Origin: an uncultured Flavobacteriaceae bacterium
GTDB taxonomy: Bacteria > Bacteroidota > Bacteroidia > Flavobacteriales > Flavobacteriaceae
Reading direction: 5' to 3'
Assembly (NCBI GenBank): GCA_947497145.1
Contig: CANMFQ010000030.1
Location: 1-46,185, forward strand
DNA length: 46,185 nt
The notes under the pieces are model-generated. The model did not search any database. It was not told where the DNA came from and was given only the letters and a program-made list of their open reading frames with translations. This document shows positions 13,590-43,234 of the stretch, piece by piece (within the stretch, counting starts at the first letter, position 1; the number at the start of each line of letters is the position of its first letter). The position numbers were made by a program, and so were the translations under genes.

Positions 13590-13593
13590 GTAG

Positions 13594-14349: not shown

Positions 14350-14379
14350 ATGTGGTTTTTAATATATTATTTTTCAACA

Positions 14380-15162: not shown

Positions 15163-15251
15163 TTGACTTATGTAAGAGTGTAACGAAATTTATAACAAGT
15201 AATTATTTGAAAAATCATACCATTTTGAGTGTTAAAAAGAGGATATAAACT

Positions 15252-16049: not shown

Positions 16050-16085
16050 TTTTATACCCAGAATATGTCTATTTATACTGCTACG

Positions 16086-16113
16086 ATTAAAAAAAACACA
16101 CGTTATAACGTGG
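16086..16113 (-). terminator. Terminator for the cysE-cysM operon
   Basis: CACGTTATAACGTG (16099-16112) is a perfect 14-bp palindrome. On the - strand it is followed by a run of eight T residues, just past the cysM stop. Confidence 0.75.
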
Positions 16114-16125
16114 CAAAAGTGTATA

Positions 16126-26263: not shown

Positions 26264-27193
26264 ATGAGTATAGTAATTATACGACAAGATGGAAAAATAG
26301 GGGTGTGGAAAGCAGCTTTGCAGCAAGCAGCACCCGAAATTAAGGTGTATAGCTATTTAGAAGACCATCCAAAAGACGAAATTGAGGTGGCTTTAGTATG
26401 GAAACATCCATCAGGAACCCTGTCGCAATACCCTAATTTAAAGTATATAGCATCAAGTGGGGCAGGGGTCGATTTTATAATTGAAGACAGCGACATCCCC
26501 AAAGATATCCCCATAACTAGGGTGGTAGATGGTTTTTTGGCGAGTGACATGGCTGAGTATGTGATTGCTGTTATTTTTGCCTACCTCAAAAATCTAAACA
26601 CCTATAAAATAGCGCAAACAAAATCAATTTGGAAGCCCAAACCTTATCAGCGTATTTCAGATTTTACCGTCGGAATATTAGGTTTAGGAGCCCTTGGGCA
26701 AGTTTTAGCTAATGATTTGGTTCGCTTTGGGTTTAAAACCCAAGGATGGAGTGCTTCTAAAAAGGCCATAAAAGGTGTTACAACCTATGCTGGAAATGAG
26801 GAATTATCTCATTTTTTGGCTAAAACTGAAATTCTTGTCTGTTTGCTTCCTTTAACCAAAGAAACAAGGGGTATTCTTAATAAGCCTTTATTTGAGCAAT
26901 TACCAAAAGGAGCACACATTATTAATGTGGCTAGGGGAGGGCACCTTGTAGATACCGACCTTATTGAAATGATTGATAATGGGCATTTATCTGGTGCTAG
27001 TTTGGATGTTTTTCATCAAGAGCCATTACCACCAGAACACCCTTTTTGGCAGCATGAAAACATCAATATAACGCCGCATTATGCCAGCGTATCAGATACA
27101 GCATCGGTAGTACCGCAAATTGTTGAAAATTATAAGCGTTGTCAAAATAATGAATCTTTGCTTAATGTAGTTTCTATGGTGAAGGGGTATTAG
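26264..27193 (+). CDS. D-2-hydroxyacid dehydrogenase, glyoxylate/hydroxypyruvate reductase A type
   Basis: The 309-aa enzyme has the NAD(P)-binding GLGALGQ motif, the substrate-side SSGAGVDFI loop with the catalytic Arg in NVARGGHLVD, the Glu in DVFHQEPLPPEHPFW, and the catalytic His in ITPHYAS. The WQHENI and PEHPFW features are those of GhrA-like reductases, which reduce glyoxylate and hydroxypyruvate. It lies just upstream of the SusC locus but ends 280 bp before it, so a link is not established. Confidence 0.87.
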   Translation: MSIVIIRQDGKIGVWKAALQQAAPEIKVYSYLEDHPKDEIEVALVWKHPSGTLSQYPNLKYIASSGAGVDFIIEDSDIPKDIPITRVVDGFLASDMAEYVIAVIFAYLKNLNTYKIAQTKSIWKPKPYQRISDFTVGILGLGALGQVLANDLVRFGFKTQGWSASKKAIKGVTTYAGNEELSHFLAKTEILVCLLPLTKETRGILNKPLFEQLPKGAHIINVARGGHLVDTDLIEMIDNGHLSGASLDVFHQEPLPPEHPFWQHENINITPHYASVSDTASVVPQIVENYKRCQNNESLLNVVSMVKGY

Positions 27194-27472: not shown

Positions 27473-30400
27473 ATGGAAAAAAAACCAAAACCACCAACAA
27501 ACATTATAGTCATTTTTCTTTTGGCTGCGATGTTATTAACGCCACAAATTCGTGCTGCTGAGATACTGAATATAAGTACATCAAAGACGATAGCCAGTTC
27601 ATATCCCAGTGCTAATGTTCTTTTTTTACAAACTGCCGTTTCAGGAAAGGTTAAAGATAATAATGGAAATCCTTTACCTGGGGCAAGTATTGTAGAAAAA
27701 GGAACAACCAACGGGGTACAGACCGATTTTGATGGTAATTTTTTAATCGAATTGTCTGATGAAAATGCCATTTTAATTGTTTCATATATAGGGTATACTA
27801 CCCAAGAAGTGGAAATAGCTGGCAAAAGTATTATCAATATAAGTTTAGAAGAAAATGCTGCCAGCTTAGATGAAGTTGTGGTAGTTGGCTATGGTACTTC
27901 AAAAAAGAGCGAGATTACAGGTGCTGTTGGTGTTGTCTCTAGTGAAGAACTATCAAGACAACCAAGTGTAAATGCTTTGCAAAATTTAAGGGGTAAAGTA
28001 GCAGGGGTTTCTGTATTTTCAAATTCTGGTGCTCCTGGCGGCAACAACAACGTGATCATTAGAGGCGTGGGAACTATTAATGCATCTACCTCACCTCTTT
28101 ATGTTGTTGACGGTATACAGGCAGATAATATCGATTATTTAAATCCTAGTGATATTGAGAGTATTGAAGTGCTAAAGGATGCCTCATCGGCTGCAATCTA
28201 CGGAGCTCGTGGAGCAAATGGTGTCATCTTGGTTACGACACAGTCTGGTTTAAAATACGATGGTACAGTAGTTGAATATTCATCAAACCTTAGCTTCGGT
28301 ACATTAGCTAAAAAGAAAAATCCTCTGTACAATGCTATGAATGCAGAAGAATTCTTGGAGGTACAAAGAATTTCTTATGAGAATATTACCTATTTTGATC
28401 CTAGTGCAACACCGCAACAACTAGCATTAGATAATCCGCTACTTTTTAATCCTGATGGTAGTCCCATATACGATACCAATTGGGAAAAGGAGACGACAAG
28501 AACGGCTATCTCACATGATCATCATATTAGTATTAGATCTGGTAGTGAAAAATCAAGTACAGGCTTATTTTTGAATTATACCGATCAAGAGGGAATTTTC
28601 TTAAACTCTTACTTGAGACGTGCCGATGCTAAATTCACTTACAATACAAAATTAAACGACCGACTTTCTATAGGTTCTATTCTACGATTAAATCATGTAT
28701 GGGAAAACGAACCACTGGTTGAAGGATTTGGAACAGACCCCGCCGCTCGTACTATAATAGAATATGCACCTATTTTCCCTGTAAGATTTCCTGATGGTAC
28801 TTACTCAAATTCTACATCGGCTAGTCTTGCTGGTACAGGACTACTTTTAGAAGCGGGACCTAACCCTGTATCGGTTCTTGAGGAAGTTGAAAACCTTACT
28901 AATCGTATTAACCTTGAAGGAAATGTATTCGCCGATTTTAAAATTTCACCTGACCTTACCTTTAGATCACAATTTGGTGTTACCCATAGAACGCGAAAAA
29001 ATCGTTACTATGCACCCACTTTTATATTTGGCACAGGTGCTCCTGATGGCAACGCTCGGGTAATTCATGGGTCAAATACCTTTTGGCAGAATGAAAATTT
29101 CTTAACCTATGACAAAACGGTAAACAAAAGTAATTTTAAAGGCGTTTTAGGAGCAAGTTGGTCTGGCTACAGTGAAGATGAATTTGTTAGTGAGGTTAGA
29201 GGCTTTACTGATGACTTTTTTAAATATAACAGTTTACAAGCTGGTTCTAATACACTACCAGCACGATCAGGTTATAAAGATTGGTCAATGAATTCCTATT
29301 TCTTCCGGGGTAACTATACTTATGATGATAAATATAGCGTTACTGTCACCGGTCGTCTTGATGGTTCCTCTCGATTTGGATCAGCAAATAAATACGGATT
29401 CTTTCCCTCTACAGGAGTTTCATGGTTTGTTTCAAAAGAAGATTTCTTAAAAGATTCAGAAACAATAAACAGCTTAAGGCTAAGAGCTTCTTATGGTGAA
29501 GTTGGTAATACAGATATTGGTTCGTATACATCATTGGCAACGGTAGGCTCTGGCACAACTCTTATAGGTGGTGCTTTACAATCAACTAGTCAATTGAATC
29601 GCTTGGCTAATCCTAATCTTAAATGGGAAAGAAGTGGGCAACTAAATGTAGGTTTTGATTTTAGTGCCTTTGATAATGTTTTAACTATAGGAGCAGATTA
29701 TTACTATAAATTGACTACCGATTTAGTGCTAGATCGCCCAATACCCTCTACAGCGGGCTTCACGACTATTGTTGATAATATAGGATCGGTTTCTAACAGA
29801 GGGATTGATCTTTTAATAGCAACCAGAAACATAGAAAGGGATAATTTTTCATGGAATACCTCTTTTTCAGTAAACTATAATAAAAACCGAGTAGAGGCAT
29901 TAGGTGAGAATGATGAAGATATATTTCCTGGACCTAACTTTGTAGATGGTAGTCAAACCATTCTACGGGTTGGTGAGCCAGTTAGCTCATTTTGGGGATT
30001 AGAACGATTAGGTATCTATGGTACAGATGAGGTTGAAGAGGCTGCGGCTGTTGGTAAAATTCCGGGGCAAATAAAGCGTAGTGCAGAGCGTAAGATCATA
30101 GGAAATGGTTTACCAGATTACAGAGGTAGTTTGGTGAATAGGTTTAGACTTGGTCAGTTTGATGCCATTGTTGATATGCAATTTTCTATTGGGGCAGATG
30201 TACTTCAGCAATTTGTAACCACAGCAGAAGATCGGCAGGCTTTAACCAATGGTTTTAGAACACAATTGGTTAATGGATGGACACCTACAAATCAAGATAC
30301 AAATATTCCAAGAATACGTAACACGGCACTATCAGGTCAAGATTTAGCGGTAGACAGCCAATGGGTTGCTGATGGGTCTTACCTAAGAGGTAATTTACTT

Positions 30401-30628
30401 TCATTGGGCTATACGTTTACGGATAGTTTTCTTGATGCCACAGGCTTAAAGTTTGTTCGCTTTAATGTAAGTCTTGAGAATGCTTTTATAATTCAGTCTA
30501 AAGATTTTAAAGGATATGACCCTGAAGCTAATGGTCTTAATGACGGAAGTAACTTCGGTCAAAATATATCCTTTTATTCCTATCCTAAAGCCAGAACTTT
30601 CAGTTTAGGATTAAACGTAAAATTTTAA
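27473..30628 (+). CDS. susC: SusC/RagA-family TonB-dependent outer-membrane transporter
   Basis: The 1051-aa protein has a signal peptide (hydrophobic residues 11-28), a carboxypeptidase-regulatory-like domain (about 58-135, SGKVKDNNGNPLPGASIVEK), the TonB box region SLDEVVVVGYGTSKKSEITG, the plug with LRGKVAGVSV and GARGANGVILVTT, and a 22-strand barrel ending SLGLNVKF. It forms a gated pore with the SusD partner 15 bp downstream and imports oligosaccharides across the outer membrane using TonB energy. The neighbouring GH38 gene suggests mannosides as substrate. It is first in the locus, after a LacI-type palindrome. Confidence 0.95.
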   Translation: MEKKPKPPTNIIVIFLLAAMLLTPQIRAAEILNISTSKTIASSYPSANVLFLQTAVSGKVKDNNGNPLPGASIVEKGTTNGVQTDFDGNFLIELSDENAILIVSYIGYTTQEVEIAGKSIINISLEENAASLDEVVVVGYGTSKKSEITGAVGVVSSEELSRQPSVNALQNLRGKVAGVSVFSNSGAPGGNNNVIIRGVGTINASTSPLYVVDGIQADNIDYLNPSDIESIEVLKDASSAAIYGARGANGVILVTTQSGLKYDGTVVEYSSNLSFGTLAKKKNPLYNAMNAEEFLEVQRISYENITYFDPSATPQQLALDNPLLFNPDGSPIYDTNWEKETTRTAISHDHHISIRSGSEKSSTGLFLNYTDQEGIFLNSYLRRADAKFTYNTKLNDRLSIGSILRLNHVWENEPLVEGFGTDPAARTIIEYAPIFPVRFPDGTYSNSTSASLAGTGLLLEAGPNPVSVLEEVENLTNRINLEGNVFADFKISPDLTFRSQFGVTHRTRKNRYYAPTFIFGTGAPDGNARVIHGSNTFWQNENFLTYDKTVNKSNFKGVLGASWSGYSEDEFVSEVRGFTDDFFKYNSLQAGSNTLPARSGYKDWSMNSYFFRGNYTYDDKYSVTVTGRLDGSSRFGSANKYGFFPSTGVSWFVSKEDFLKDSETINSLRLRASYGEVGNTDIGSYTSLATVGSGTTLIGGALQSTSQLNRLANPNLKWERSGQLNVGFDFSAFDNVLTIGADYYYKLTTDLVLDRPIPSTAGFTTIVDNIGSVSNRGIDLLIATRNIERDNFSWNTSFSVNYNKNRVEALGENDEDIFPGPNFVDGSQTILRVGEPVSSFWGLERLGIYGTDEVEEAAAVGKIPGQIKRSAERKIIGNGLPDYRGSLVNRFRLGQFDAIVDMQFSIGADVLQQFVTTAEDRQALTNGFRTQLVNGWTPTNQDTNIPRIRNTALSGQDLAVDSQWVADGSYLRGNLLSLGYTFTDSFLDATGLKFVRFNVSLENAFIIQSKDFKGYDPEANGLNDGSNFGQNISFYSYPKARTFSLGLNVKF

Positions 30629-30643
30629 ATAAAAAATTGAATC

Positions 30644-32209
30644 ATGAAAAAAATAATAAAAATACTAGCAGTAGCCACGTTCTCTTTGGTTATCTGTTCT
30701 TGTGAAGATTTTCTTGAAGAAACCCCAAGAAATGAGATTTCTTCAAATCAGTTCTTTAATGAACCAGACGATGTACTATCTGCAGTAAATGCACTTTATG
30801 CCGAAGGAGCATTAAATAGATATATCACTGGTGATTTTCAAATTAATCAAGGAATGGGCGGTTATTTGTCTGGCCTTTTTTCAGACGAACGTACGGAGCG
30901 TATAGGACCAGCAGAAGCCAATACGTTAACCTTGAACGCTAGTAATTTAGATCAATATTTATTTGGCTACTGGAGTAATGTTTATCAAATTATTGGAAGA
31001 GCAAATAACGCAATCAAATTTATTCCTGACGTAGCAGGTCTTTCAGAAGCCGAAGCCAATCAACTATTGGCAGAAGCAAGATTTTTTAGAGCGTTCAATT
31101 ATTTTGCGATTGTAAGAGATTTTGGTGATGTTCCCCTTGTATTAGAGCCTACAGAAAATGTTGATGATGTTCTGGGTACACGTACACCTTCAGCAGAGGT
31201 ATATGAGGCTATAGTCACCGATCTTGAGTGGGCATTGAATAATGGAGGCTTAGCAGATGTTACCATGCCCAATAATGGATTTCGAATTACAAAAGGTGTT
31301 GTTGCAGCGGTTTTAGCAAATGTAGAACTTCAGCGCGCTGGGTTTCCTGTTCAAGTAGGATCGGCAAGCTATACAAAGGCGGCTACGGCAGCCAGAACGA
31401 TTATTAATAGTGGCCAATATGCACTTATTTCTAATGGTAGTACACCAGAAACCAGTGCTTACAATGTATTGCGCACCTCAGAGAATGAGGCAGAACATAT
31501 TTTTGTATTGGAATTAGATGCGCAACTTCGTCAATCACCCTATATCTCATGGTCGTCTCCAAGGGGAGCCAATGCGCCTGGGGCACTTTTAGATCCTTAT
31601 GTAGCGTATTTACCCAATGAACAGTATGTAGACTTTTATGATGCTGATGAAGATCTTAGAATACAGAATAGACAGTTATGGTTTACATCAATTAATAGAG
31701 ATGGTGTAGAATATCCCTTTCCTGATGGTGTTTACGGACCCTATACATGGTTTGATGAAGTAGGGTTATTTGAAACGGGTAGAGGAGGAGACGATTTAAA
31801 CATCAGTCTTTATTCTGAAATATTACTAATTGCTGCCGAAGCTATTGCGGAAACCGAAGGGGTAACAGCTGAAGCAATTGGGTACCTAGCTGATGTGAGA
31901 AGTAGGGCTGCAATGTCAATGACAAGAGACGCTATAGTTACAGAATTGAGTGGTTTATCAAAAGAGGCTTTTGTTGAAGAGGTATGGAAAGAAAGATTAC
32001 GAGAGTTACCATTACTATTTAAAATTTGGCCTGATGTTCAACGAACACGAAAGTATCCGGTATCACCAAGCCCTGGAGAAATAAATTTTGTTGATGTTAT
32101 TGGGCATACAAGTCCGTTTAACGCCACATTTGAAGAAAAACATTTGCTATTACCTATCGCTACCACAGTGCGACAACGAAACCCAGAAATGACAGGTAAT
32201 GGATACTAA
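30644..32209 (+). CDS. susD: SusD/RagB-family glycan-binding lipoprotein
   Basis: The 521-aa protein starts with a lipoprotein signal (lipobox ICSC) and then CEDFLEETPRNEISSNQFFN, the usual SusD start. TPR-like helices follow (QLLAEARFFRAFNYFAIVRD, then FGDVPLV), and the late ISLYSEILLIAAEAIA and EEVWKERLRELPLLFKIWPD blocks are in SusD order. It caps the SusC pore at the cell surface and binds the glycan. A terminator hairpin lies about 60 bp after its stop. Confidence 0.95.
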   Translation: MKKIIKILAVATFSLVICSCEDFLEETPRNEISSNQFFNEPDDVLSAVNALYAEGALNRYITGDFQINQGMGGYLSGLFSDERTERIGPAEANTLTLNASNLDQYLFGYWSNVYQIIGRANNAIKFIPDVAGLSEAEANQLLAEARFFRAFNYFAIVRDFGDVPLVLEPTENVDDVLGTRTPSAEVYEAIVTDLEWALNNGGLADVTMPNNGFRITKGVVAAVLANVELQRAGFPVQVGSASYTKAATAARTIINSGQYALISNGSTPETSAYNVLRTSENEAEHIFVLELDAQLRQSPYISWSSPRGANAPGALLDPYVAYLPNEQYVDFYDADEDLRIQNRQLWFTSINRDGVEYPFPDGVYGPYTWFDEVGLFETGRGGDDLNISLYSEILLIAAEAIAETEGVTAEAIGYLADVRSRAAMSMTRDAIVTELSGLSKEAFVEEVWKERLRELPLLFKIWPDVQRTRKYPVSPSPGEINFVDVIGHTSPFNATFEEKHLLLPIATTVRQRNPEMTGNGY

Positions 32210-32525: not shown

Positions 32526-35432
32526 ATGAAATTGAAATTGCATTTAGTACTATTGTGTTTGGTATCGAGTATTTGTTTTGCTCAAACAACTCAAGCTGAA
32601 AAAACGATATTATTTGAATATATTAAACCATATGAATATGTTGAAGTAGAAAACATGATATTAGCCAAGGCTTTATTGACAAAAGGAACTGGTGAAGTTT
32701 ATAAAAAAGTGATTTTTGAAAATGGACGTGTTGCCAAAATTGAACGAATTGGAGATAAATTCTCGGTTTGGCTTCCAGTAATTGGCGAACCTGAAATAAT
32801 TGAGATTGTAGCAACGAACAAAAAAAAGAGTAAGAAACAACTTTTTACACCATTGGTCACCTCTAATTGGGACTATTTTAAAGAAGGTACTTTTCATATC
32901 ATATCCTCATCACACCAAGATATAGCATGGATGGATACTCCTGAATATTGTAGACATGAAAGAATAAATGATATTATTATTCCAGCATTAGATGTAATGA
33001 AAACAGATGATGCGTATCATTTTGGAATGGAGCAGGCATTAAATTTAAAAGAATTTATTGAAGCCCACCCTGAAAGAAAAGACGAAGTAATAAACCGCTG
33101 CAAAGAAGGACGATTTACTTGGGGAGCTACTTATAATCAACCTTATGAAGGTGTTCAGATGGGTGAACAACTCATTCGAGAAATGTATTTTGGAAAAAAA
33201 TGGATTAAAGATAATTTTAAAGGATGTGATACCAAAACAGCATTTAATACTGATGTACCTGGGCGAACCTTGCAGTTTCCTCAAATTTTAGCAAAATCAG
33301 GTGTAGAAAATCTATTTGTGTCTAGGATGAAAGAAGGGTTTTATGATTGGCAATCGCCCGACGGGTCATCTGTACTAACCTATACGCCGGGTAATTATGG
33401 TTGGGCGGTAATGTTCTATAGATTATTTGAAACAGATGCTATAGAATCTATGCATAAACTACAGAATAGGGTGAAAATGTGGAGTGATTATTACAGGAAA
33501 CATAATTTGCCACCACACTTTGCCATAGTCATTAGTAATGATGCATCTGGACCAAATAATTATGGGAAAATTGTAAATGAATGGAATGCAATAGTAAATC
33601 ACGTAGGTTTAAAAATACCCAAGCTAAAACATGCTACGGTTACTTCTTTTATGAACGAAGTAAATAAACCAGAAGCTATGTTTCCTGTTTTAGAAGGTGA
33701 TAGGCCAAACATTTGGTCTTACATACATGGCCCTGCACATCACAAAGCAATTACTGCATCTAGAAAAGCTGGTAGAATGTTGCCCTCAGCTGAAATATTT
33801 AGTACTGTAGAAGCATTAATTCATAATTCATTTGATAGCTACCCCAGTAAGGAACTTTCCATGGCTTTTGAAGAATCAATTTACCCTGATCATGGTTGGG
33901 GCGGTAAAAATGGACATATTACAGATAGTATCTTCAGAAGTAAACTTGAATATGCAGCAAATGAATCTGATAGAATGATTAAAAAGTCATTGCATGCCAT
34001 TTCTAATCAAATTAATACTGAAAAAGCTAATGCTATTATTGTGTACAATGATTTGTCATGGGAACGCAATGGTATTGCTTCTATTCAAATTGATAATCCA
34101 GAAAAGTATCACGTTGTTAATAGTGATAAAAACGTTGTGCCGTCGCAGCTAGTAAGTGAAAATGGTGAAAAACGTATACATTTTGTTGCTAATAATATAC
34201 CTTCATTGGGTTATAAGACTTTCTATTTGGTAAAGGGAAAAGTGAAGTACAAAGCAGATAAAATAGTAACGCCAAATTACCTACAAAATGATTTTTATAC
34301 GATGCGATTAGGTGATGGAGGTATTACAGCTTTGTATGATCGTACGTTACAAAAAGAAATCATAAAAAGCACAAAATTTTCAGGTGGAGATGTGCTTACT
34401 TTGGAATACTCAGGTAATGGTGCAGGTGAGTTTACTCAAATGACCAAGCCTGAAATGAAAGGTGTTTTTGTAGCTAATGGAAAATCGTATAATGCTGGTT
34501 TTGATATAACCAGCGAACATGTTTCTCAATGGCGAATTGTAAATGATGGAAATGTTTTTACGCAATATGAGAACAAGACAGCTTTTAAGCATACACAGAT
34601 TGTTCAAAAAATAAAAGTATTTCATCATGAAAAAAAAATAGATGTATCAGTTGACATGATAGGGTGGGATGGAACTCATAATCGAGAATTTCGTTTGGCT
34701 GTTCCACTAAACATGAATGATGCGAAAATAAAATATGAAGTGCCTTTGGCTATTGCTGAAGTTGGTAAAACAGAAATGAAAGAAGCTCCAAAAGGTTGGG
34801 CTTGGGGTGGTACTTACGATAGCAAACCATCAACCATTCATCCGCGAGAAGTACTAAATTACATTGCTGCTGAAACTAATGATTTTGCGGTAACTATGGC
34901 CACTGATGTAGCTCTAGCCGATTGGATTGATCCTACACGCGAAGCTGTTGACTATCCCGTTTTGCAAGGCCTTTTAATCGCTTCACATAAAAGCTGTCAT
35001 GGAGAAGGAAATTGGTATCATCAAAAAGGGAATCATCATTTTGATTTTTCTATTTCATCCCATAGACCAAGTGACAAGCTATCATATCAGTTTGGTACAT
35101 CATCAAATCATCCATTTAGAACAATTTTAAAAGCAAAAACAAATGAAAATGCCAAACTCCCAAGTGCTATGAGCTTTTTTAATGTATCAGATTCCATGGT
35201 AAGAATAAGCACTATAAAAAAGAGTGAAAATGACAATAACGTTATTCTTAGATTGGTCGAAATGGAAGGTGAAAATAAAAAAGTCACCGTAGGATGTTCA
35301 TCACCATTTAAACAGTTGATTAAGACAAACTTAATTGAAGAAGAAGTTGGTAATACAAAACAATCTGGTAAAAATATTGAAATAGAAATAGGTAATAATG
35401 CTATAGAAACATATAAGTTGGTTTTTGAGTAA
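32526..35432 (+). CDS. Secreted glycoside hydrolase family 38 alpha-mannosidase
   Basis: The 968-aa protein has a signal peptide (cleavage near SSICFAQ). The GH38 catalytic domain starts near residue 120 with ISSSHQDIAWMDTP (His130, Asp132, zinc ligands). It then has the nucleophile region AFNTDVPGRTLQFPQILAKS with Asp243, and GPAHHKAITASRKAGRM. A long C-terminal beta-rich part follows (HDIAWM-type enzymes share it). GH38 enzymes release alpha-linked mannose with a retaining mechanism. NTDVPG replaces the common QIDPFG, so linkage specificity may differ. It is the first enzyme after the terminator behind susD; the cupin gene follows after 47 bp. Confidence 0.87.
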   Translation: MKLKLHLVLLCLVSSICFAQTTQAEKTILFEYIKPYEYVEVENMILAKALLTKGTGEVYKKVIFENGRVAKIERIGDKFSVWLPVIGEPEIIEIVATNKKKSKKQLFTPLVTSNWDYFKEGTFHIISSSHQDIAWMDTPEYCRHERINDIIIPALDVMKTDDAYHFGMEQALNLKEFIEAHPERKDEVINRCKEGRFTWGATYNQPYEGVQMGEQLIREMYFGKKWIKDNFKGCDTKTAFNTDVPGRTLQFPQILAKSGVENLFVSRMKEGFYDWQSPDGSSVLTYTPGNYGWAVMFYRLFETDAIESMHKLQNRVKMWSDYYRKHNLPPHFAIVISNDASGPNNYGKIVNEWNAIVNHVGLKIPKLKHATVTSFMNEVNKPEAMFPVLEGDRPNIWSYIHGPAHHKAITASRKAGRMLPSAEIFSTVEALIHNSFDSYPSKELSMAFEESIYPDHGWGGKNGHITDSIFRSKLEYAANESDRMIKKSLHAISNQINTEKANAIIVYNDLSWERNGIASIQIDNPEKYHVVNSDKNVVPSQLVSENGEKRIHFVANNIPSLGYKTFYLVKGKVKYKADKIVTPNYLQNDFYTMRLGDGGITALYDRTLQKEIIKSTKFSGGDVLTLEYSGNGAGEFTQMTKPEMKGVFVANGKSYNAGFDITSEHVSQWRIVNDGNVFTQYENKTAFKHTQIVQKIKVFHHEKKIDVSVDMIGWDGTHNREFRLAVPLNMNDAKIKYEVPLAIAEVGKTEMKEAPKGWAWGGTYDSKPSTIHPREVLNYIAAETNDFAVTMATDVALADWIDPTREAVDYPVLQGLLIASHKSCHGEGNWYHQKGNHHFDFSISSHRPSDKLSYQFGTSSNHPFRTILKAKTNENAKLPSAMSFFNVSDSMVRISTIKKSENDNNVILRLVEMEGENKKVTVGCSSPFKQLIKTNLIEEEVGNTKQSGKNIEIEIGNNAIETYKLVFE

Positions 35433-35479
35433 TAATGCTTTACCTAAGTAGCATAACCAATTAATAAATGTACACATAA

Positions 35480-35905
35480 ATGAATTTGATACAATCTTAC
35501 ACAATAGAAAAAAAGGGCTTTTTTCCAGTATTAGTAAGAGATAGTTGGCAAGTTGGAGTATTAAATTATACGGATGCGTTTCATATTACCGCCTTGAATA
35601 GCCTACAAATACACCAAAAAACAGCTCGATGCTTTGGTTTACTAAAAGGTCAGGCAGTTTTGATAGCAATGGATACTAGTAATCAAAAATCTAGTTTTAA
35701 AATAGTACCCATGCAAAGAGGAGTCTCTTACAATATTCCTAAAAATACGAGGTATGCTATTGCAATGGAAGAAGGTACTAAAGTATTTACGGTTGAAAAG
35801 CAGCAAACGCATTTAACCGATGTAGCCTATTACCCTTTGCATGAAAAGGAATTAACAACTATTCGATTACAACTTAATAAGCAAACAAAAAACAACAATG
35901 AATAA
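35480..35905 (+). CDS. Cupin-like protein 1, metal-site residues lost
   Basis: The 141-aa protein is a small cupin-type beta barrel and a paralogue of the protein at 38223. Both share a Gly-Trp/Ser-Trp start block, an xHxKT...LxKGxAxLIA strand pair and NIPxNxxxxIAMExGxxVF. In this copy the putative metal ligands are missing: Asp-Glu after HxKT is Ala49-Arg50, and the second-motif His is Tyr92. It overlaps the RraA-like gene by 8 bp, so the two are coupled. It may bind a sugar or regulate its paralogue rather than catalyse. Confidence 0.65.
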   Translation: MNLIQSYTIEKKGFFPVLVRDSWQVGVLNYTDAFHITALNSLQIHQKTARCFGLLKGQAVLIAMDTSNQKSSFKIVPMQRGVSYNIPKNTRYAIAMEEGTKVFTVEKQQTHLTDVAYYPLHEKELTTIRLQLNKQTKNNNE

Positions 35906-36602
35906 CAGTCAACCATTATGGGCGAATGATGCCGAACTTTTTCAAATAGCCAAAAAAGAGTTGTTTGTGGCATTAGTAGGAGATGTTCTTGACAAATTAG
36001 GGTATGAACATCAATTTTTACCGCCAAACATTAAACCTTTGAATGCAGATTTTGTGCTTATTGGAAGAGCTATGACGGTTTTAGAAGCAGATGTTTTTGA
36101 AGAAGCGTCACAAACAACCAAAAACCCTTTAATGAAAAAACCTTTTGGGCTCATGTTTGAAGCTTTAGACAGCTTAAAGCCTAATGAAGTATATATCTGC
36201 TCAGGCTCATCTCCCAACTATGCACTTTGGGGTGGTCTAATGAGTACACGTGCTCTAAAACTGGGGGCTGCAGGTGCCGTCCTTGACGGTTGGTCTAGAG
36301 ATACTAATGAAGTACTTAAACTCAATTTTCCTACTTTTTCTTTTGGAGGGTATGCTCAAGACCAAGGACCTAGGGGTAAGGTTATTGACTACCGTGTTCC
36401 TATTGAAATTAAGGGGACTAGAATTAATCCTGGAGATATTATTTATGGGGATAGAGATGGTGTTCTTGTGGTGCCTAAAGAAGTGGTAACAGCTGCTTTT
36501 GTTGGGGCTATTGAGAAAGCTCGTGGAGAGCAATTGGTTAAAAAAGCTCTAGAAAATGGTATGAGTACCGTAGAGGCCTTTCAAAAATTTGGGATAATGT
36601 AA
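35898..36602 (+). CDS. RraA-like protein (HMG/CHA aldolase superfamily)
   Basis: The 234-aa protein belongs to the RraA/4-hydroxy-4-methyl-2-oxoglutarate aldolase fold: VGDVLDKLGY near the start, ALWGGLMSTRALKLGAAGAV, the catalytic block VLDGWSRDTNEV with Arg and Asp, and PGDIIYGDRDGVLVVPKEVV. In class II aldolases of this fold, that Arg-Asp pair and a divalent metal cleave 2-keto acids to pyruvate. Its place in a locus that would make 2-keto-3-deoxygluconate makes an aldolase role worth testing. The ribonuclease-regulator name RraA should not be taken as function. Confidence 0.8.
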   Translation: MNNSQPLWANDAELFQIAKKELFVALVGDVLDKLGYEHQFLPPNIKPLNADFVLIGRAMTVLEADVFEEASQTTKNPLMKKPFGLMFEALDSLKPNEVYICSGSSPNYALWGGLMSTRALKLGAAGAVLDGWSRDTNEVLKLNFPTFSFGGYAQDQGPRGKVIDYRVPIEIKGTRINPGDIIYGDRDGVLVVPKEVVTAAFVGAIEKARGEQLVKKALENGMSTVEAFQKFGIM

Positions 36603-36702
36603 GTAGTGTTTGGTCGGAAACACTCAAATTGTAAAAAATCATCTATTCCCAAGCAGACACTAAACAAGCTATGATAAAGCATTATTAAACAAAAATTAAG
36701 TA

Positions 36703-38169
36703 ATGAAAACTAAAAACTTCAACTCCAACTATTTATTAGGAATAAGCTTTGTGTCAACAATAGGAGGCTTCCTTTTTGGGTATGATACCGCCGTTATTTC
36801 AGGATGTAATTCCTTTTTAGAACAGCACTTTGAGTTATCAGCTTCTATGCTGGGTTGGGTAGTTTCATCTGCTTTATTAGGTACTATTTTTGGATGTATT
36901 GTGGCTGGTAGTATTACCGATAAAATTGGTCGTAAAAAAGCACTGATTTTAGCTGCTTTGTGTTTAACGGTTTCTGCTATTGGCTCCATGCTACCTCCTC
37001 AGTTTTTAGGAAATATAGAGAATGCCTATTGGCTTACTTCAGATGTGGATACCGCATTTAACGTATTGATAATAGTACGCATAATTGGCGGTATTGGGGT
37101 TGGTATTACCTCTGTAGTAGCGCCCATTTATATCTCAGAACTTTCATTACCCAAAAGTAGAGGGAGAATGGTGTCTTTATACCAGCTATCTATAACTTTA
37201 GGTATCTTATTGGCTTTTCTAATAGATTGGCTGGTACTCACCAATGCAGGAGATGGCGCAGGTGTAATAGCAACAGAGTCTTCTGGTTTTTTTCAGTGGT
37301 TATTTGTAGATGAAATATGGCGTGGTATGTTTGGTACTGAAATACCAATTGCCTTGTTATTTTTGATATTACTCTTGGTAGTACCAGAAACACCAAGATG
37401 GCTTATTTCAAAAGGAAGGTATGATGAGGCTGAGGCGATTATGGTAAAAACAAATGGGCAAGAGTATGCGCAAAAGCAAATGGCCGAAATAAAAGCCGAG
37501 GTTAAAGCAAAAGACATTGGTATTGGAGAATTGTTAAAACCGTTTTTAAGAGTCCCCTTATTAATTGGTGTACTGCTACCCATGTTTGCTCATTTAAGTG
37601 GTATTGCCGCTATTATGTATTTTGCACCTAACATTATTAATGAATCCATAGAAAGTGTAGAAAGTTCCTTTTTAGGAGCGGTTTTGGTAGGGGTTGTAAA
37701 TAGCGCATTTACCTTTGTAGCCATTTTTAATATTGAAAAATTTGGGCGCAGAAAGTTATTACTCATTGGTGTTGTAGGGGCATTTATATCACTCACTGGC
37801 GTAGGTGTTCTATTTGCTATAGGTTCCCAATATGTAATTATTCCATTATTACTGTATGTAGCCAGTTTTGCATTTTCTTTAGGGCCTATTGTATGGGTTA
37901 TTATTAGCGAAATATTTCCGACACGCATTCGTGGTTTTGCCGTTTCTATTGGCAGTTTTGCATTAATGACTACAGGTTTTTTTATCACCTTAACCAACCC
38001 TATTTTAATTGAAAAAATTATGCCTTCAGGCACCTTTTTTGTCTATGCGGCAATGACCTTACCAGCTATTTGGTTCATTTGGAAATTTGTGCCGGAAACA
38101 AAAGGAAAAACACTAGAAGAAATACAGAAATATTGGCGTGATAATCGGCTAGTTAAAAATAAACATTAA
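36703..38169 (+). CDS. MFS sugar transporter (sugar porter family, XylE/GalP-like)
   Basis: The 488-aa protein has about 12 transmembrane helices and the sugar-porter signatures GGFLFGYDTAVISGC, DKIGRKKA between helices 2 and 3, VVPETPRWLISKGR after helix 6, and PETKGKTLEEIQ after helix 12. These porters move a monosaccharide with protons and do not phosphorylate it. In this locus mannose is the likely substrate, arriving in the cytoplasm as the free sugar. Confidence 0.92.
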   Translation: MKTKNFNSNYLLGISFVSTIGGFLFGYDTAVISGCNSFLEQHFELSASMLGWVVSSALLGTIFGCIVAGSITDKIGRKKALILAALCLTVSAIGSMLPPQFLGNIENAYWLTSDVDTAFNVLIIVRIIGGIGVGITSVVAPIYISELSLPKSRGRMVSLYQLSITLGILLAFLIDWLVLTNAGDGAGVIATESSGFFQWLFVDEIWRGMFGTEIPIALLFLILLLVVPETPRWLISKGRYDEAEAIMVKTNGQEYAQKQMAEIKAEVKAKDIGIGELLKPFLRVPLLIGVLLPMFAHLSGIAAIMYFAPNIINESIESVESSFLGAVLVGVVNSAFTFVAIFNIEKFGRRKLLLIGVVGAFISLTGVGVLFAIGSQYVIIPLLLYVASFAFSLGPIVWVIISEIFPTRIRGFAVSIGSFALMTTGFFITLTNPILIEKIMPSGTFFVYAAMTLPAIWFIWKFVPETKGKTLEEIQKYWRDNRLVKNKH

Positions 38170-38222
38170 GACACTATATAAGTAGAAATGTACATGCATA
38201 ATTATGAATCTATATTGAAAAT

Positions 38223-38657
38223 ATGATAGAAACATTTGTTGTAAAGGATAAAGGATATCACCCTGTGATTATTGATAATGGTTGGCAAATGGCGCACCTA
38301 AACTATACAGAAGAGCAAGATATTGAGCAAATTACACGCTTAGATGTTCATTTGAAAACGGATGAGGTTTTTGTGTTGATAAAAGGTAATGCAATACTTA
38401 TTGCAGCGGATATTGTACATGAAGAGCCCCTATTTGAAGTGAAATTAATGAAACCGAATACGATATACAATATTCCTCAAAATATGTGGCATAATATTGC
38501 AATGGAAGCAGGTAGTGAAGTCTTTATTGCCGAAAAATCAAACACTCATATCGCTGATTGTAAACATTTTGAATTAAATGAAAGAAAACAAGAAGAATTG
38601 AAAAGTATGGTTAAAGCACTTTTTAATTCAGTTAACCATATACAACACCCCTCGTAG
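38223..38657 (+). CDS. Cupin-like protein 2, putative metal site intact
   Basis: The 144-aa paralogue of the protein at 35480 keeps a plausible cupin metal site: His43, Asp47 and Glu48 in DVHLKTDEVFVLIKG, and His90 in NMWHNIAMEAG. The fold recalls small cupins that act as sugar isomerases, mutarotases or dioxygenases; none can be chosen from sequence. The SDR gene begins 1 bp after its stop, so it is part of the same transcript. Confidence 0.7.
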   Translation: MIETFVVKDKGYHPVIIDNGWQMAHLNYTEEQDIEQITRLDVHLKTDEVFVLIKGNAILIAADIVHEEPLFEVKLMKPNTIYNIPQNMWHNIAMEAGSEVFIAEKSNTHIADCKHFELNERKQEELKSMVKALFNSVNHIQHPS

Positions 38658-38658
38658 T

Positions 38659-39459
38659 ATGACAAAAATAAATTTATCAGGAAAAAATGCCTTAGTAACT
38701 GGCGGTAGTCAAGGTATTGGAGCAGAAATATGTAGAAAATTAGCGTCTTGCGGTGCAGCTGTTTTTATAAACTTTTATAGTAATGAAGCAAAAGCAGCAA
38801 TGCTAGCCAAAGAAATAGCAACTAATTATGGTGTAAAAGTAGCCTATGGCGGTGCTAATGTAGCAGATGCAAGGCAGGTAAAGGAAATGTTTACCCAGAT
38901 GGATAAGGAGCTAGGTACTATAGATATTCTAGTGAACAATGCAGGCAGCGAAAGTATTGCTCATGTATTGGATTTGGAAGAAGAAGAATGGGATAGGGTA
39001 GTGAACATTAATCTAAAAGGGCCTTTTTTATGTTCGCAACAGGCGGGTAAAAGAATGGGGGTGATAGGAAAAGGTGTGATTATAAATATTTCTTCCATTC
39101 ATGATAAAGTACCTAGAAAAGGATTGATTCATTATTGTGCGGCCAAAGCAGGTTTAAAAATGTTTTCAAAATGCCTTTCATTAGAATTGGCTGATAAAAA
39201 TATACGGGTAGTTTCGGTAGCTCCTGGCGCTATTGAAACTAATATGAATAAAACAGAGATTGAAGCATTTGGTAAGGAAAAATTTGAAAAATGGATTCCT
39301 CAAGGAAGAATAGGAAATGTAACCGATGTAGCCAATACAGTAGCTTTCATGGCTAGTGATTTAGCAGACTATATTAATGGTGCCGATGTGTACATTGATG
39401 GTGCGTATATGAACCATACTATTCAATATGACCCAAGAATTCCCAAATTAAAAAAATAA
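38659..39459 (+). CDS. SDR oxidoreductase, glucose-1-dehydrogenase-like
   Basis: This classical 266-aa short-chain dehydrogenase has TGGSQGIG (cofactor loop), NNAGS, the catalytic Ser145/Ser146, Tyr159 and Lys163. The phrase ISSIHDKVP...IHYCAAKAGLKMF and the end VYIDGAYMNHTIQYDPR closely follow glucose 1-dehydrogenases, which have ISSVHE...HYAASKGG and a DGGMT...YPSFQ end. An aldose 1-dehydrogenase would oxidise the free sugar to the aldonolactone, the substrate of the lactonase encoded 32 bp downstream. A fructuronate/mannonate reductase role is an alternative. Confidence 0.82.
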   Translation: MTKINLSGKNALVTGGSQGIGAEICRKLASCGAAVFINFYSNEAKAAMLAKEIATNYGVKVAYGGANVADARQVKEMFTQMDKELGTIDILVNNAGSESIAHVLDLEEEEWDRVVNINLKGPFLCSQQAGKRMGVIGKGVIINISSIHDKVPRKGLIHYCAAKAGLKMFSKCLSLELADKNIRVVSVAPGAIETNMNKTEIEAFGKEKFEKWIPQGRIGNVTDVANTVAFMASDLADYINGADVYIDGAYMNHTIQYDPRIPKLKK

Positions 39460-39491
39460 ACTTCGCTACAATCACTAAAAGCGCTACACAA

Positions 39492-40550
39492 TTGAAAAGT
39501 ACATTTTACATAGGAAGTTATACGCAAGAAGGTACTCCTGCTAAAAAGCCTAAAGGGCAAGGAATTGGTTGTTTTTCATTTAATTTGGAGACTGGCCAAG
39601 TAGATTTGCTGTATTATGTAGCACAACGAAACCCAAGTTATATTGTAATTTCAGAAAACAAAAAATATCTATACGCTTTAGAAGAAATGGAGGAACACTT
39701 AAGCCCAAAGGTGTTTGCATACAGTATTGATACTTCTGGAAGACTTACCTATATAAATGCACAAAAATTGAAAGGAGATTATGCCTGTCACCTTGCAATT
39801 GTTGAAGGCCACTTAATTGTAGCTAACTATATGTCTGGAAATGCCGTGGTATTCCCAATTCAAAAAAATGGTTGTATTGCTTCTCATCACCAAATGATAC
39901 AGCATATAGGTAAAGGAATTAATAAAGAGCGCCAAGAAGCAGCACATATGCATATGGTATGTCCTTATAAAAAAGGCTATATGTTTTTAGTAGATTTAAG
40001 CTTGGATAAAGCCAATGCCTATCAATTAGAAAACGGTACAAAAACATGGAATGCCGTTCCTAAATTAGATATAACTATTGAATCTGGCGCAGGTGCCCGG
40101 CATATGGTTTTTGATGCTAGTAAAACTTACGCATTTGTTTTAAGTGAACTTACAGCAACCATTTTTGTACTAAAAAAAGAGGCTACTGTATTTAAGCAAA
40201 GGCAAAAGATAGCTGCCCTGCCTCCAAATTATAAAGGCAGTTTTGGTGCAGCAGCAATTAGACTTCATCCAACAGGAAAATTTTTATATGCTTCAATTCG
40301 TGGCGCTGATACCATAGCAATTTTTAGTGTAGATAAAAAAAATAAAAATTTAACATGCCTCGGTTTCCAAGCAACACTAGGAAATACGCCGCGTGATTTT
40401 AATATTCATTCTTCTGGAGATTGGTTAATTGTAGCAAATCAGGATTCAGATACAATAGTTGTTTTTAAAATTAACCAAGAAACAGGCATGTTAGTGCAAA
40501 AAAGCGTCAAGTGTGTTAAAACTCCAGTAAATATTACTTGGCTTGATTAA
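39492..40550 (+). CDS. Seven-bladed beta-propeller lactonase (6-phosphogluconolactonase-like family)
   Basis: The start is a TTG at 39492; no ATG lies between the SDR stop and the first conserved strand. The 352-aa protein begins STFYIGSYT, then repeats propeller blades (GCFSFNLETGQ, NPSYIVISENKKYLYALEEM, GKFLYASIRGADTIAIFSVD, GNTPRDFNIHSSGDWLIVAN), the layout of the Lactonase family. The conserved PRDF and HM (AAHMHMV) sites are present. It has no signal peptide and should hydrolyse an aldonolactone in the cytoplasm. Between the aldose dehydrogenase and the mannonate dehydratase, mannono-lactone is the expected substrate. Confidence 0.85.
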   Translation: MKSTFYIGSYTQEGTPAKKPKGQGIGCFSFNLETGQVDLLYYVAQRNPSYIVISENKKYLYALEEMEEHLSPKVFAYSIDTSGRLTYINAQKLKGDYACHLAIVEGHLIVANYMSGNAVVFPIQKNGCIASHHQMIQHIGKGINKERQEAAHMHMVCPYKKGYMFLVDLSLDKANAYQLENGTKTWNAVPKLDITIESGAGARHMVFDASKTYAFVLSELTATIFVLKKEATVFKQRQKIAALPPNYKGSFGAAAIRLHPTGKFLYASIRGADTIAIFSVDKKNKNLTCLGFQATLGNTPRDFNIHSSGDWLIVANQDSDTIVVFKINQETGMLVQKSVKCVKTPVNITWLD

Positions 40551-40594
40551 CATATGGAGAGGAAAACAAAATAAATAAACTAAAAAAACAAACA

Positions 40595-41647
40595 ATGAAA
40601 CTAGGATTTGGTCTGTATAAGCACATGCTCAACGAGCAGCATTATAAGTTTGCAAAACAATGTGGTGCTACACATTTGGTAATTCATTTAGTCGACTATT
40701 TTGGTCATAATAAAGATAATGCCGATCAACCCATAGGAGGAGAAGATGGCTGGGGAAAGGCAGGTGATAATAAAATATGGAGTTTAGATGAACTTTTAGC
40801 TATTAAAAAAGAGATAAATGCCCACGGTCTAGAATTAGAGGCAATTGAGAATTTCGATCCTGCTCATTGGCATGATATTCTGCTAGATGGCCCTAAAAAG
40901 ATCGCTCAAATGGCAGATTTAAAGCAATTGATACGCAATGTGGGCAAGGCAGGTATACCCACATTTGGCTATAATTTTTCTTTGGCAGGCGTATCGGCAA
41001 GAAATCAAGGGGCATATGCTAGGGGCGAAGCCATTTCTGTTGGTATGCATGGAGGTGATGATACGCCAATACCTAATGGCATGGTATGGAACATGGTATA
41101 CGATGACGATGCTCCAGCAGGTACCTTACCAAAAATTGACCACGATGAACTTTGGCGACGCTTACATTATTTTCTTGATGAAATTTTACCCGTTGCAGAA
41201 GAGGCTGGAGTAAAAATGGCTGCCCACCCCGATGATCCTCCATTGCCTTATGTTAGAAACACACCAAGACTAGTATATCAACCAGATATGTACCAAAAAT
41301 TAATAGACATACATCCCAGCCCGGCAAACAATCTAGAGTTTTGTTTAGGCTCTATTGCAGAAATGACGGAGGGTGATGTATACGAGGCTACAGACCAATA
41401 CAGTAAGCAAGGGAAAATTAGCTATATACATTTTAGAAATATTGTGGGAAAAGTGCCAAACTATAAAGAAGTTTTTGTTGATGAAGGCGATATAGATATG
41501 TTTAAAATACTAAATATTCTAAAGAAAAATAATTTTGATGGTGTTTTAATTCCTGACCATACGCCGCAAATGACCTGTGATGCTCCTTGGTATGCTGGTA
41601 TGGCTTACGCTATGGGGTATATGAAAGCAGCCTTACAAATGATCTGA
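40595..41647 (+). CDS. uxuA: Mannonate dehydratase (UxuA family)
   Basis: The 350-aa TIM-barrel enzyme shows AAHPDDPPLPY, NNLEFCLGSIAEM (metal-ligand Cys), SYIHFRNIVGKVPNYKEVFV (metal-ligand His), DMFKILNILKKN and LIPDHTP, all in UxuA order. It dehydrates D-mannonate to 2-keto-3-deoxygluconate. UxuA usually works in glucuronate breakdown, but no uronate isomerase is present here; instead an aldose dehydrogenase and lactonase precede it. The Cys, His and Asp metal site looks intact. Confidence 0.88.
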   Translation: MKLGFGLYKHMLNEQHYKFAKQCGATHLVIHLVDYFGHNKDNADQPIGGEDGWGKAGDNKIWSLDELLAIKKEINAHGLELEAIENFDPAHWHDILLDGPKKIAQMADLKQLIRNVGKAGIPTFGYNFSLAGVSARNQGAYARGEAISVGMHGGDDTPIPNGMVWNMVYDDDAPAGTLPKIDHDELWRRLHYFLDEILPVAEEAGVKMAAHPDDPPLPYVRNTPRLVYQPDMYQKLIDIHPSPANNLEFCLGSIAEMTEGDVYEATDQYSKQGKISYIHFRNIVGKVPNYKEVFVDEGDIDMFKILNILKKNNFDGVLIPDHTPQMTCDAPWYAGMAYAMGYMKAALQMI

Positions 41648-41773
41648 ACAAATACTTGATACCTCATAGTAAAATCAGAAGCATAATTTGCAGGTAAAAA
41701 AACTCAAGATGAGTTCAATAACAGTAATACCTATGAACCAAAATACTACTAAAAATAACTAAATGAGACCAAA

Positions 41774-43162
41774 ATGAAAAGAAGAAAATTCATTAAAACT
41801 ACTGGTAGCTATAGCCTATTGCTTAGTAGTACAGGAGCATTGACTTCCTTTAAAAACCCTATGTTTTCTGACGAAACCCAAATACAAGAGCAAGCTTTTG
41901 CAGCTTTTGATCGATTTAAAGAAGTATGGGATTTTAAAGATTTTTGGAAGCGTGGAAACACTTTTGATGCCTGCCTTACTTTTATGGATGCTGTACAACA
42001 ACAGTGGCCAGAACACAAAAAAGTTAAAAAAATGCAACGAGAAGTAAAAGAAATGTTAGCCAAAAATCTAACGTTCTTTCACAGTTATAACCCTGGTGAA
42101 TTATGGGCGGATGATTTTGGATGGTGGGGACTTATGGCACTCAATGCACGAAAGCATTTATTAAAATTAGGCGAAAAGGATCTTGCTGATACCTATTTAA
42201 AATTATCTACAGATTTATGTTGGGAATATAAAAAGAAAACGGCTTATGATCATTCAAATGCAGGTATACCTGTTGTACATGGCTGTCGCAATGGTGATGC
42301 TAACGGGCAAAGTAGAGGTGTTAAAAATACGGTAACCAATGTATTGTTGTTTTTACTTTCCTCGCGAATTTACCGGTTAACCTTAGCTGAGAATATTTCG
42401 GATAATGAAAAATACTTGGATATGGCTTATCGGCAGTGGAAATGGTTTGATGATTGGTTTTCCTCTTATGAGTTTGAATATTTAAAAAATACCTCCCCCT
42501 CTGGTGCACTTGTTCAAGAGCGACCTATGGCATTTTTTGAAGGTTCAAATTACCAAGAAAAAATACACCCACCATGGGCGCCAGGTTGGGTTTGGACAGG
42601 AGATCAAGGTATGCTAGTAGCAGCCCTTGTTGATATGCTTGCCATAAGAAAGCCCTTGGCCAATTTTATAGCAAAAAAGAATTTGGATCCTAATTTTAAG
42701 CCAGCGCAGTTTGAAAATAAAATACGAACCCTTATCAAAATGCTAGGCAATGGTATTCAAACAGCTTTTGTTGCTGAGGTAGATGGTATTGTACGTGAAG
42801 CTCCTTGCTTATCTAGTTTTGGACCACAACATGGTAATGATTATATTGCTGGACGTGGTATTCTGTTACGCTATGTAGGTACTGATGAGATTAAAAAGCT
42901 GCTGGGCGTAAATCTTACTCCTGCAATTACAAAAACCGTAACAGCACTATGGAATACGCGCAACAAGGCTAATAATCAATTTAGCCCCGAATTTACTTCT
43001 GCTGAAAACGATAGCGCCTATGTGAAACAATTTGAAAAGTTATGGGGACTGGCAGATGACGTACACACCTGGGATCTTAAAAAAATGAAAGAACAAAACC
43101 GATTAGGGGTTTGCCAAGCCATTGGCTTAGATACTATAGGCGCTGCTATAAGGGCGATTTAA
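41774..43162 (+). CDS. Tat-exported GH76-like (alpha-mannanase-type) protein
   Basis: The 462-aa protein opens MKRRKFIKTTGSYSLLLSST, a twin-arginine signal (RRKFIK). The mature part has the alternating helices of six-hairpin glycosidases: ELWADDFGWWGLMALNARKH with an Asp-Asp pair as in GH76, TNVLLFLLSSRIYRL, YRQWKWFDDWF, and APGWVWTGDQGMLVAALVDM, matching the WTYNQG block of GH76. GH76 enzymes cut alpha-1,6-mannan. Similarity is at motif level only, so another six-hairpin family (for example GH88/105-like or an epimerase) is possible. It ends the locus at a shared terminator. Confidence 0.65.
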   Translation: MKRRKFIKTTGSYSLLLSSTGALTSFKNPMFSDETQIQEQAFAAFDRFKEVWDFKDFWKRGNTFDACLTFMDAVQQQWPEHKKVKKMQREVKEMLAKNLTFFHSYNPGELWADDFGWWGLMALNARKHLLKLGEKDLADTYLKLSTDLCWEYKKKTAYDHSNAGIPVVHGCRNGDANGQSRGVKNTVTNVLLFLLSSRIYRLTLAENISDNEKYLDMAYRQWKWFDDWFSSYEFEYLKNTSPSGALVQERPMAFFEGSNYQEKIHPPWAPGWVWTGDQGMLVAALVDMLAIRKPLANFIAKKNLDPNFKPAQFENKIRTLIKMLGNGIQTAFVAEVDGIVREAPCLSSFGPQHGNDYIAGRGILLRYVGTDEIKKLLGVNLTPAITKTVTALWNTRNKANNQFSPEFTSAENDSAYVKQFEKLWGLADDVHTWDLKKMKEQNRLGVCQAIGLDTIGAAIRAI

Positions 43163-43191: not shown

Positions 43192-43234
43192 AAACAAACA
43201 AAAAACCACAACATGCGTGTGGTTTTTGTTTGTT
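43192..43234. terminator. Bidirectional terminator between convergent genes
   Basis: A long stem (ACAAACA and A-run, then ACCACA paired with TGTGGT and the T-run) with loop ACATGCG has A and T runs on both sides. It can end both the sugar locus and the - strand OmpA-like gene. Confidence 0.9.

Follow-up and report, generated by a model that had tools for sequence, protein, structure and literature searches.

A putative non-phosphorylating mannose pathway in an alpha-mannoside utilization locus of a Flavobacteriaceae bacterium

We analyzed a 46,185-nucleotide stretch of DNA (the window: contig CANMFQ010000030.1 of assembly GCA_947497145.1), a single contig of the 5.1 Mb genome of an uncultured Flavobacteriaceae bacterium. 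By its UxuA-like protein, the nearest named relatives of this organism are Flavobacteriaceae, for example Maribacter. The window encodes a run of genes extending from a GH38 family enzyme to a GH76-like enzyme, with intergenic gaps of -8 to 126 bp (Table 1). Six of these genes, for GH38, a sugar porter, a short-chain dehydrogenase/reductase (SDR), a lactonase, UxuA and the GH76-like enzyme, had been named in a preliminary description; all six are open, co-directional and located where it placed them, and their products pass the Pfam gathering scores for Glyco_hydro_38N, Sugar_tr, adh_short, Lactonase, UxuA and Glyco_hydro_76. Three further genes of the run, encoding an RraA-like protein and two small cupin-like proteins, had been overlooked. 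The run follows a SusC/SusD pair (27473-32209; SusD assigned by weak models and position), which together with the glycoside hydrolases identifies the region as a polysaccharide utilization locus (PUL).

Table 1. Genes and other features of the locus, with positions in the window
Feature	Position	Strand	Basis
SusC/RagA TonB-dependent outer-membrane transporter, 1051 aa	27473..30628	+	TIGR04056 801 bits vs cut-off 368
SusD-like protein, 521 aa	30644..32209	+	NanU/SusD models weak, far under cut-offs; directly 3' of SusC
GH38 family alpha-mannosidase-like enzyme, 968 aa	32526..35432	+	Pfam Glyco_hydro_38N E 7e-29
Small cupin-like protein 1, 141 aa	35480..35905	+	34% identity to cupin 2; without Pfam family
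RraA-like protein, 234 aa; proposed 2-keto-3-deoxy-aldonate (KDG) aldolase	35898..36602	+	Pfam RraA-like PF03737 E 1.3e-32
MFS sugar porter, 488 aa; proposed inner-membrane mannose importer	36703..38169	+	TIGR00879 338 bits vs cut-off 238
Small cupin-like protein 2, 144 aa	38223..38657	+	predicted structure/fold search
SDR, 266 aa; proposed NAD(P)-dependent D-mannose 1-dehydrogenase	38659..39459	+	Pfam adh_short; conserved residues
7-bladed beta-propeller lactonase, 352 aa, TTG start; proposed mannonolactonase	39492..40550	+	Pfam Lactonase E 1.7e-88
Short UxuA-clade protein, 350 aa; proposed D-mannonate dehydratase forming KDG	40595..41647	+	Pfam UxuA E 4.5e-54
GH76-like enzyme, 462 aa	41774..43162	+	Pfam Glyco_hydro_76 E 2.9e-9
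Two-way terminator-like hairpin after the run	43201..43227	.	consensus scan

Given the gene content and order, their conservation, the predicted fold of the UxuA-like protein and the swapping of modules between related loci, all of which we observed, we suggest that this is probably an alpha-mannoside PUL with its own non-phosphorylating (Entner-Doudoroff-like) mannose pathway, the substrates, reactions and compartments being deduced from sequence. SusC and SusD would take up mannosides, from which the GH38 and GH76-like enzymes would free mannose, and the major facilitator superfamily (MFS) porter would carry it into the cytoplasm. There, the SDR may oxidize D-mannose to mannonolactone, the propeller lactonase may convert this to D-mannonate, and the short UxuA-clade enzyme may form 2-keto-3-deoxygluconate (KDG) from D-mannonate. 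The RraA-like enzyme would then yield pyruvate and glyceraldehyde, the least securely placed step of the scheme. The preliminary description had proposed the route from mannose through mannonate to KDG; comparative genomics, namely the module swap and the co-occurrence of mannosidases, favors this proposal, while its argument from absent genes proved weak, the sugar of its SDR was a deduction and RraA had no place in it.

By sequence, the UxuA-like protein is a member of the Pfam UxuA family (PF03786; 184 bits, cut-off 23.7) outside the uxuA equivalog. Its AlphaFold model has a mean predicted local distance difference test score (pLDDT) of 79.6, with three weak loops. In a Foldseek comparison with the PDB, the five best chains are all mannonate dehydratases (E 1.5e-20 to 1.5e-16), followed by an epimerase at 5.1e-12. 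Residues H211, C250, H279, D321 and H322 align with 3ban, are invariant in 26 sequences and presumably form the metal site. The genomic context supports the prediction that this short UxuA-clade enzyme dehydrates D-mannonate to KDG.

We searched 149 genomes of the family with the UxuA-like protein and obtained a match of any kind in 56, of which 8, including the genome studied here, hold a full-length match of at least 55% identity. Large parts of the cassette occur in four of the others (G011, G032, G050 and G044); the G050 stretch has a different gene order and neither a lactonase nor a GH76-like gene within 17.7 kb. When 84,980 species genomes were scanned, 396 relatives emerged; the best 80 of the 396, a choice biased to close relatives, were compared with the window as 81 mutually non-independent loci. 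Cultured relatives that carry the cassette include Maribacter polysiphoniae (L045) and Algibacter pectinivorans (L076). Genes were clustered at 38% identity and 60% coverage in stretches of up to 10 kb on each side, many of them ending at contig ends. Among the 80 loci, the clusters of RraA (58), SDRs of several kinds (56), MFS (49), GH38 (45), cupin (42) and lactonase (37) were found. Because the gene set recurs whole or in part in other genomes, it is not a chance neighborhood.

Within 1.5 kb of the 80 short UxuA genes lie RraA in 15 cases, the window-type SDR in 19, the lactonase in 16 and GH38 in 8, together with UxuB-type SDRs in 2, UxaC in none and glucuronate-type SDRs in 8. Around a control set of 23 other putative UxuA-family genes, whose flanks were measured from partial matches and are therefore slightly shorter (stretches of about 3.3-4.2 kb, compared with about 4 kb), RraA, window-type SDR, lactonase and GH38 were each found in 0 of 23; UxuB-type SDRs accompany 14, UxaC 8 and glucuronate-type SDRs 2. 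A class-wide sample of 395 genomes yielded RraA (E 1e-40) in 3, the UxuA-like gene (E 1e-60) in 4 and both in 2, which is too sparse to judge co-occurrence.

Two kinds of loci were distinguished among the 81. Oxidative-type loci (48) were defined by a window-type SDR, with the SSIHD motif or the carboxyl end YDPR, and glucuronate-type loci (7) by UxaC without a canonical UxuA, or by the companion SDR plus an Nramp-like gene. RraA is present in 46/48 oxidative loci, MFS in 45/48, GH38 in 41/48, the lactonase in 36/48 and the GH76-like gene in 16/48. The seven glucuronate-type loci contain UxaC (6/7) and the Nramp-like gene (7/7), both partly by definition, and RraA (4/7), no lactonase (0/7), and an SDR of another kind; their short UxuA is 74-78% identical to that of the window. 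UxaC, SDR, Nramp-like transporter and short UxuA form one run in L082, L086, L092, L095, L107 and L109. One oxidative-type locus, L087, additionally holds UxaC, which there stands apart, grouped with a canonical UxuA. At least one gene from the GH38, GH76-like or GH92 clusters occurs in 44/48 oxidative versus 0/7 glucuronate-type loci (Fisher p 1.6e-6, the loci being non-independent).

In the tree, the seven glucuronate-type loci fall inside a clade of 15 that includes six oxidative ones (support 96/86), the rest being unassigned, and is nested in a clade of 28 (99/97). The module labels require three changes, of which the well-supported branches force only one. D-mannonate is the expected meeting point of the glucuronate and oxidized-mannose routes. 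Because close relatives of one UxuA enzyme occur in both modules, which would meet at D-mannonate, the swap supports a route via this compound, and we regard it as the main evidence that the pathway would run this way.

The SDR has the catalytic Ser-Tyr-Lys (S146, Y159 and K163), and these residues, along with E98 and H148, are invariant in 14 sequences. Its motifs NNAG-x-E and SSIHD may resemble those of glucose dehydrogenase. No NCBIfam model among the 25 best reached its cut-off for this protein (PRK07231, 213.5 versus 215). We propose that it may be a D-mannose 1-dehydrogenase. The propeller lactonase matches PDB 3fgb (E 2.3e-50). The divergent UxuA relatives (54-57%) of G024, G125 and G466 are accompanied by an SDR of another kind, a lactonase of the SMP-30 family and a DUF4432 gene; the best model for the G125 SDR is 'aldose dehydrogenase' (271 bits, under the cut-off of 341). 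Judged by these family assignments, a second pairing of SDR and lactonase, from other families, beside a divergent UxuA supports the D-mannonate route.

At the glycan end, the GH38 enzyme matches an alpha-mannosidase in the PDB (E 2.1e-8). Mannosylglycerate (digeneaside) was considered as the specific mannoside and is neither supported nor excluded (81.5 bits versus a mannosylglycerate hydrolase cut-off of 1138). The GH76-like protein scores 37.4 bits against a cut-off of 25.9, the match being limited to residues 54-227, and a PDB sequence search at E 1 returned no GH76 chain for it. The porter reaches 396 bits with the XylE model, under its cut-off of 608. The two small cupins are paralogous, conserved in the cassette and without a Pfam family; the model of the second (AlphaFold mean pLDDT 91.4) is closest in fold to PDB 3d0j, a protein of unknown function (template modelling score 0.90), and then to cupins of many roles. 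A glyoxylate-reductase-like gene (26264-27193) has no cluster member in the 80 loci and was kept out of the cassette. Terminator-like patterns are not in excess in the region (10 found, 10.7 expected from shuffles).

The related loci carry further genes. In L071, L075, L094 and others, the same run includes, near UxuA, genes for a solute-binding-protein-like product, an enoyl-CoA hydratase-like enzyme and a CoA-transferase III. A second module of MFS, another SDR (SWDDW or SWDNW motif), CoA-transferase and GH92 recurs in L034, L050, L051, L058 and L070, and a module of the same type is found in L061, its last gene unclustered; that of L034 includes a UxuA-like paralogue of 32% identity. Six Verrucomicrobiota loci (L114, L115, L119, L121-L123) have a short UxuA (65-69%) but lack every named partner cluster over the stretch compared.

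The RraA-like protein (PF03737, 113.5 bits) has a class II aldolase fold. It matches PDB 3noj, an HMG/CHA aldolase (E 5.6e-11), with the Arg-Asp pair aligned; this pair, R134-D135, is invariant in 18 sequences and is presumably catalytic. Its scores are under the cut-offs of the HMG/CHA aldolase equivalogs (PRK09262, 62 versus 179; TIGR02798, 53.7 versus 304.5). RraA at 60% identity or more was found in 7 of the 149 family genomes, including all 6 that hold the UxuA-like gene at 76% or more; it is absent from the two whose UxuA is divergent. In L128, L129 and L130, copies 62-66% identical to that of the window lie in runs that also encode SDRs and enzymes of the enolase superfamily (MR_MLE); L130 has an SMP-30-like gene as well. 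The NCBIfam matches of these enolase-superfamily enzymes are sugar-acid dehydratases, all under cut-off; L131 displays this arrangement by weak similarity only. As RraA thus occurs together with dehydratases that differ in fold, two kinds in all, and as its Arg-Asp pair can be aligned to 3noj, we infer from these comparisons a keto-deoxy-aldonate (KDG) aldolase, at a chance somewhat below even. A second, partial cassette elsewhere in the same genome (L127; C16:55001-75000, positions 3601-16627) comprises LacI, SusC, SusD-like, RraA (81% identical to that of the window), MFS, cupin, an SDR of just 150 aa and a further member of the GH38 cluster; the 20 kb contain no UxuA-like gene.

For this last step alone, a different scheme, compatible with the mannose pathway, is nearly an even bet: KDG may be phosphorylated and then split by 2-keto-3-deoxy-6-phosphogluconate (KDPG) aldolase, with RraA performing other chemistry. 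Such chemistry could resemble that of FlDet, an RraA-like KDGR dehydratase/decarboxylase according to the part of its report available to us (PMC8563752). KDG-kinase-like and KDPG aldolase cluster members occur in 7/48 oxidative loci, directly after UxuA in L075 and L094 and separated from it by another gene on the opposite strand in L056 and L072. For the PfkB kinase of L068, the best-matching models are those of a KDPG aldolase/sugar-kinase fusion and of KDG kinase, under cut-off; the adjacent gene encodes a KDPG aldolase that passes its cut-off (PRK07114, 375 versus 275 bits). Two KDPG-aldolase-family matches also lie on other contigs of the genome studied here. Against this scheme stand the presence of RraA in 39/41 oxidative loci without the kinase-like/aldolase pair, the runs its relatives share with two unrelated dehydratase folds, and the alignment of its Arg-Asp pair with a pyruvate aldolase. 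The kinase-like and KDPG aldolase genes of some loci support, by their predicted functions, a route via D-mannonate.

We tentatively propose, at a chance clearly short of even, that RraA-like proteins of this clade, sharing about 62% identity or more, make up a new family of aldolases that split 2-keto-3-deoxy-aldonates without prior phosphorylation and close several oxidative sugar pathways of Bacteroidota. The family would be fed by interchangeable upstream modules (UxuA or an enolase-superfamily dehydratase; aldose dehydrogenase and lactonase, or UxaC and a reductase), permitting kinase-free use of mannose and glucuronate in glycan degraders.

Several observations weigh against a mannose pathway of this form. 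The sugar of the SDR is not readable from its sequence, FabG and glucose dehydrogenase chains score alike in a PDB profile search, and the enzyme could possibly act as a uronate reductase, notably from mannuronate to mannonate. The UxuA-like protein scores under the NCBIfam uxuA equivalog TIGR00695 (123.4 versus 199.6 bits) and has Ile in place of the Arg that precedes the PDH motif in solved UxuA enzymes. The lactonase cluster of the window was not seen in 12/48 oxidative loci, RraA is missing from 3/7 glucuronate-type loci, no close RraA was found in the three genomes with divergent UxuA, and all 7 loci with the kinase-like/KDPG aldolase pair also hold RraA. Twenty-six of the 81 loci match neither module rule (9 of these with RraA, 5 with GH38), and by the tree modules may have been swapped once or several times. 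CoA-transferase (31/80 loci), solute-binding-protein (30/80) and enoyl-CoA hydratase (26/80) genes are superfluous to the proposed route. The preliminary description had also argued from the lack of a uronate isomerase, a mannose isomerase and a sugar kinase. This is true of the locus, which has no UxaC and does not show the canonical glucuronate pathway, but other contigs of the genome encode UxaC as well as a second UxuA accompanied by a UxuB-type SDR, and they give one phosphomannose isomerase hit and three ROK hits. We therefore dropped the argument as weak, and the locus need not be the only mannose route.

Some of these points would also fit the same chemistry acting on another aldose, the sugar released not being mannose and the UxuA-like and RraA-like enzymes using another aldonate and keto-deoxy acid. 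The divergence of the GH38 and GH76-like enzymes, the failure of models to settle the SDR, the Arg to Ile change near the UxuA active site and the unexplained CoA-related genes are in line with this alternative, which we consider unlikely: the same UxuA clade stands beside UxaC in six loci, where mannonate is the expected substrate, and the oxidative module is repeatedly accompanied by gene clusters of three mannosidase families. About equally unlikely is a uronate route in which the SDR would form D-mannonate by reducing D-mannuronate or D-fructuronate, the lactonase being there incidentally; D-mannonate is generally known to be reachable from either uronate, UxuA classically belongs to uronate catabolism and the short UxuA is paired with UxaC and an SDR in six related loci, yet the window-type SDR is far from the UxaC-side SDR (27-33% identity, different motifs) and from the UxuB-type SDR of its own genome (which passes the D-mannonate oxidoreductase model, 303 versus 281 bits, a model not among the 25 best for the window SDR), lactonase and alpha-mannosidase-family genes accompany the window-type SDR at the frequencies given above, and a second UxuA, a UxuB-type SDR and UxaC are already present elsewhere in the genome.

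If the proposed mannose pathway is correct, marine and soil Bacteroidota would degrade glycan mannose without ATP for a kinase and without mannose-6-phosphate, and would thereby keep the breakdown of mannose separate from the mannose-6-phosphate that goes into GDP-mannose. Genes labelled by generic models as FabG/glucose dehydrogenase, 6-phosphogluconolactonase, mannonate dehydratase and RraA would gain a specific role, and bacteria would be added to the range of the route proposed for Thermoplasma. North Sea flavobacteria are reported, in the available part of PMC6298971, to have mannose-rich PULs that include GH38, GH76 and GH92; the main text of that paper does not contain the word 'mannonate'. 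That the pathway had not been described for a Bacteroidota mannoside locus, as initially supposed, agrees with our finding none in the titles and abstract openings of the literature listed, a search lying outside most subscription papers. That literature also gave no paper containing both 'RraA' and 'fuconate'. Oxidative sugar pathways encoded with marine glycan systems (carrageenan) and the conversion of mannose to KDG in vitro (Thermoplasma) are already known; the newest part is the RraA-like candidate aldolase.

The canonical bacterial glucuronate pathway comprises UxaC, UxuB, UxuA, KdgK and Eda. It has the UxuA step and KDG in common with the proposed pathway, but forms mannonate from fructuronate, without an aldose dehydrogenase or lactonase. 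The other comparisons follow the parts of the cited reports available to us. FlDet of Flavobacterium sp. UMI-01 is likewise a flavobacterial RraA-like enzyme acting on a keto-deoxy sugar acid; its substrate derives from an oxidized alginate monomer and undergoes dehydration and decarboxylation, the likeness being drawn from the published description (PMC8563752). In Maribacter sp. MAR_2009_72, the mannonate dehydratase JM81_RS16615, likewise compared by its published description, is expressed in a marine flavobacterial PUL, with a hint by the authors of sugar-acid metabolism; this PUL is for arabinogalactan/arabinose, and no mannose route is proposed in the part available (PMC11036162). The non-phosphorylative fucose and rhamnose pathways of SAR202 similarly combine an NAD(P) dehydrogenase, a sugar-acid dehydratase and an aldolase without a kinase, but in place of UxuA and RraA they use dehydratases of the mandelate-racemase/enolase type and aldolases of COG3836 (PMC10444878). 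The carrageenan system of Zobellia galactanivorans resembles the locus in encoding, with a marine Bacteroidota glycan system, a dedicated oxidative monosaccharide pathway to a 2-keto-3-deoxy sugar acid; its dauABCD genes act on 3,6-anhydro-D-galactose through other enzyme families, a kinase (dauC) and a phospho-aldolase (PMC5698469). An oxidative mannose route has been assembled as an in vitro cascade, and suggested in vivo, for Thermoplasma acidophilum (AldT, ManD and KDG aldolase; PMC6901390). As proposed for the window, it proceeds without phosphorylation through mannose, mannonolactone, mannonate and KDG to pyruvate and glyceraldehyde, but in an archaeon, where the lactone opens spontaneously and the KDG aldolase is Ta1157 (PMC6901390).

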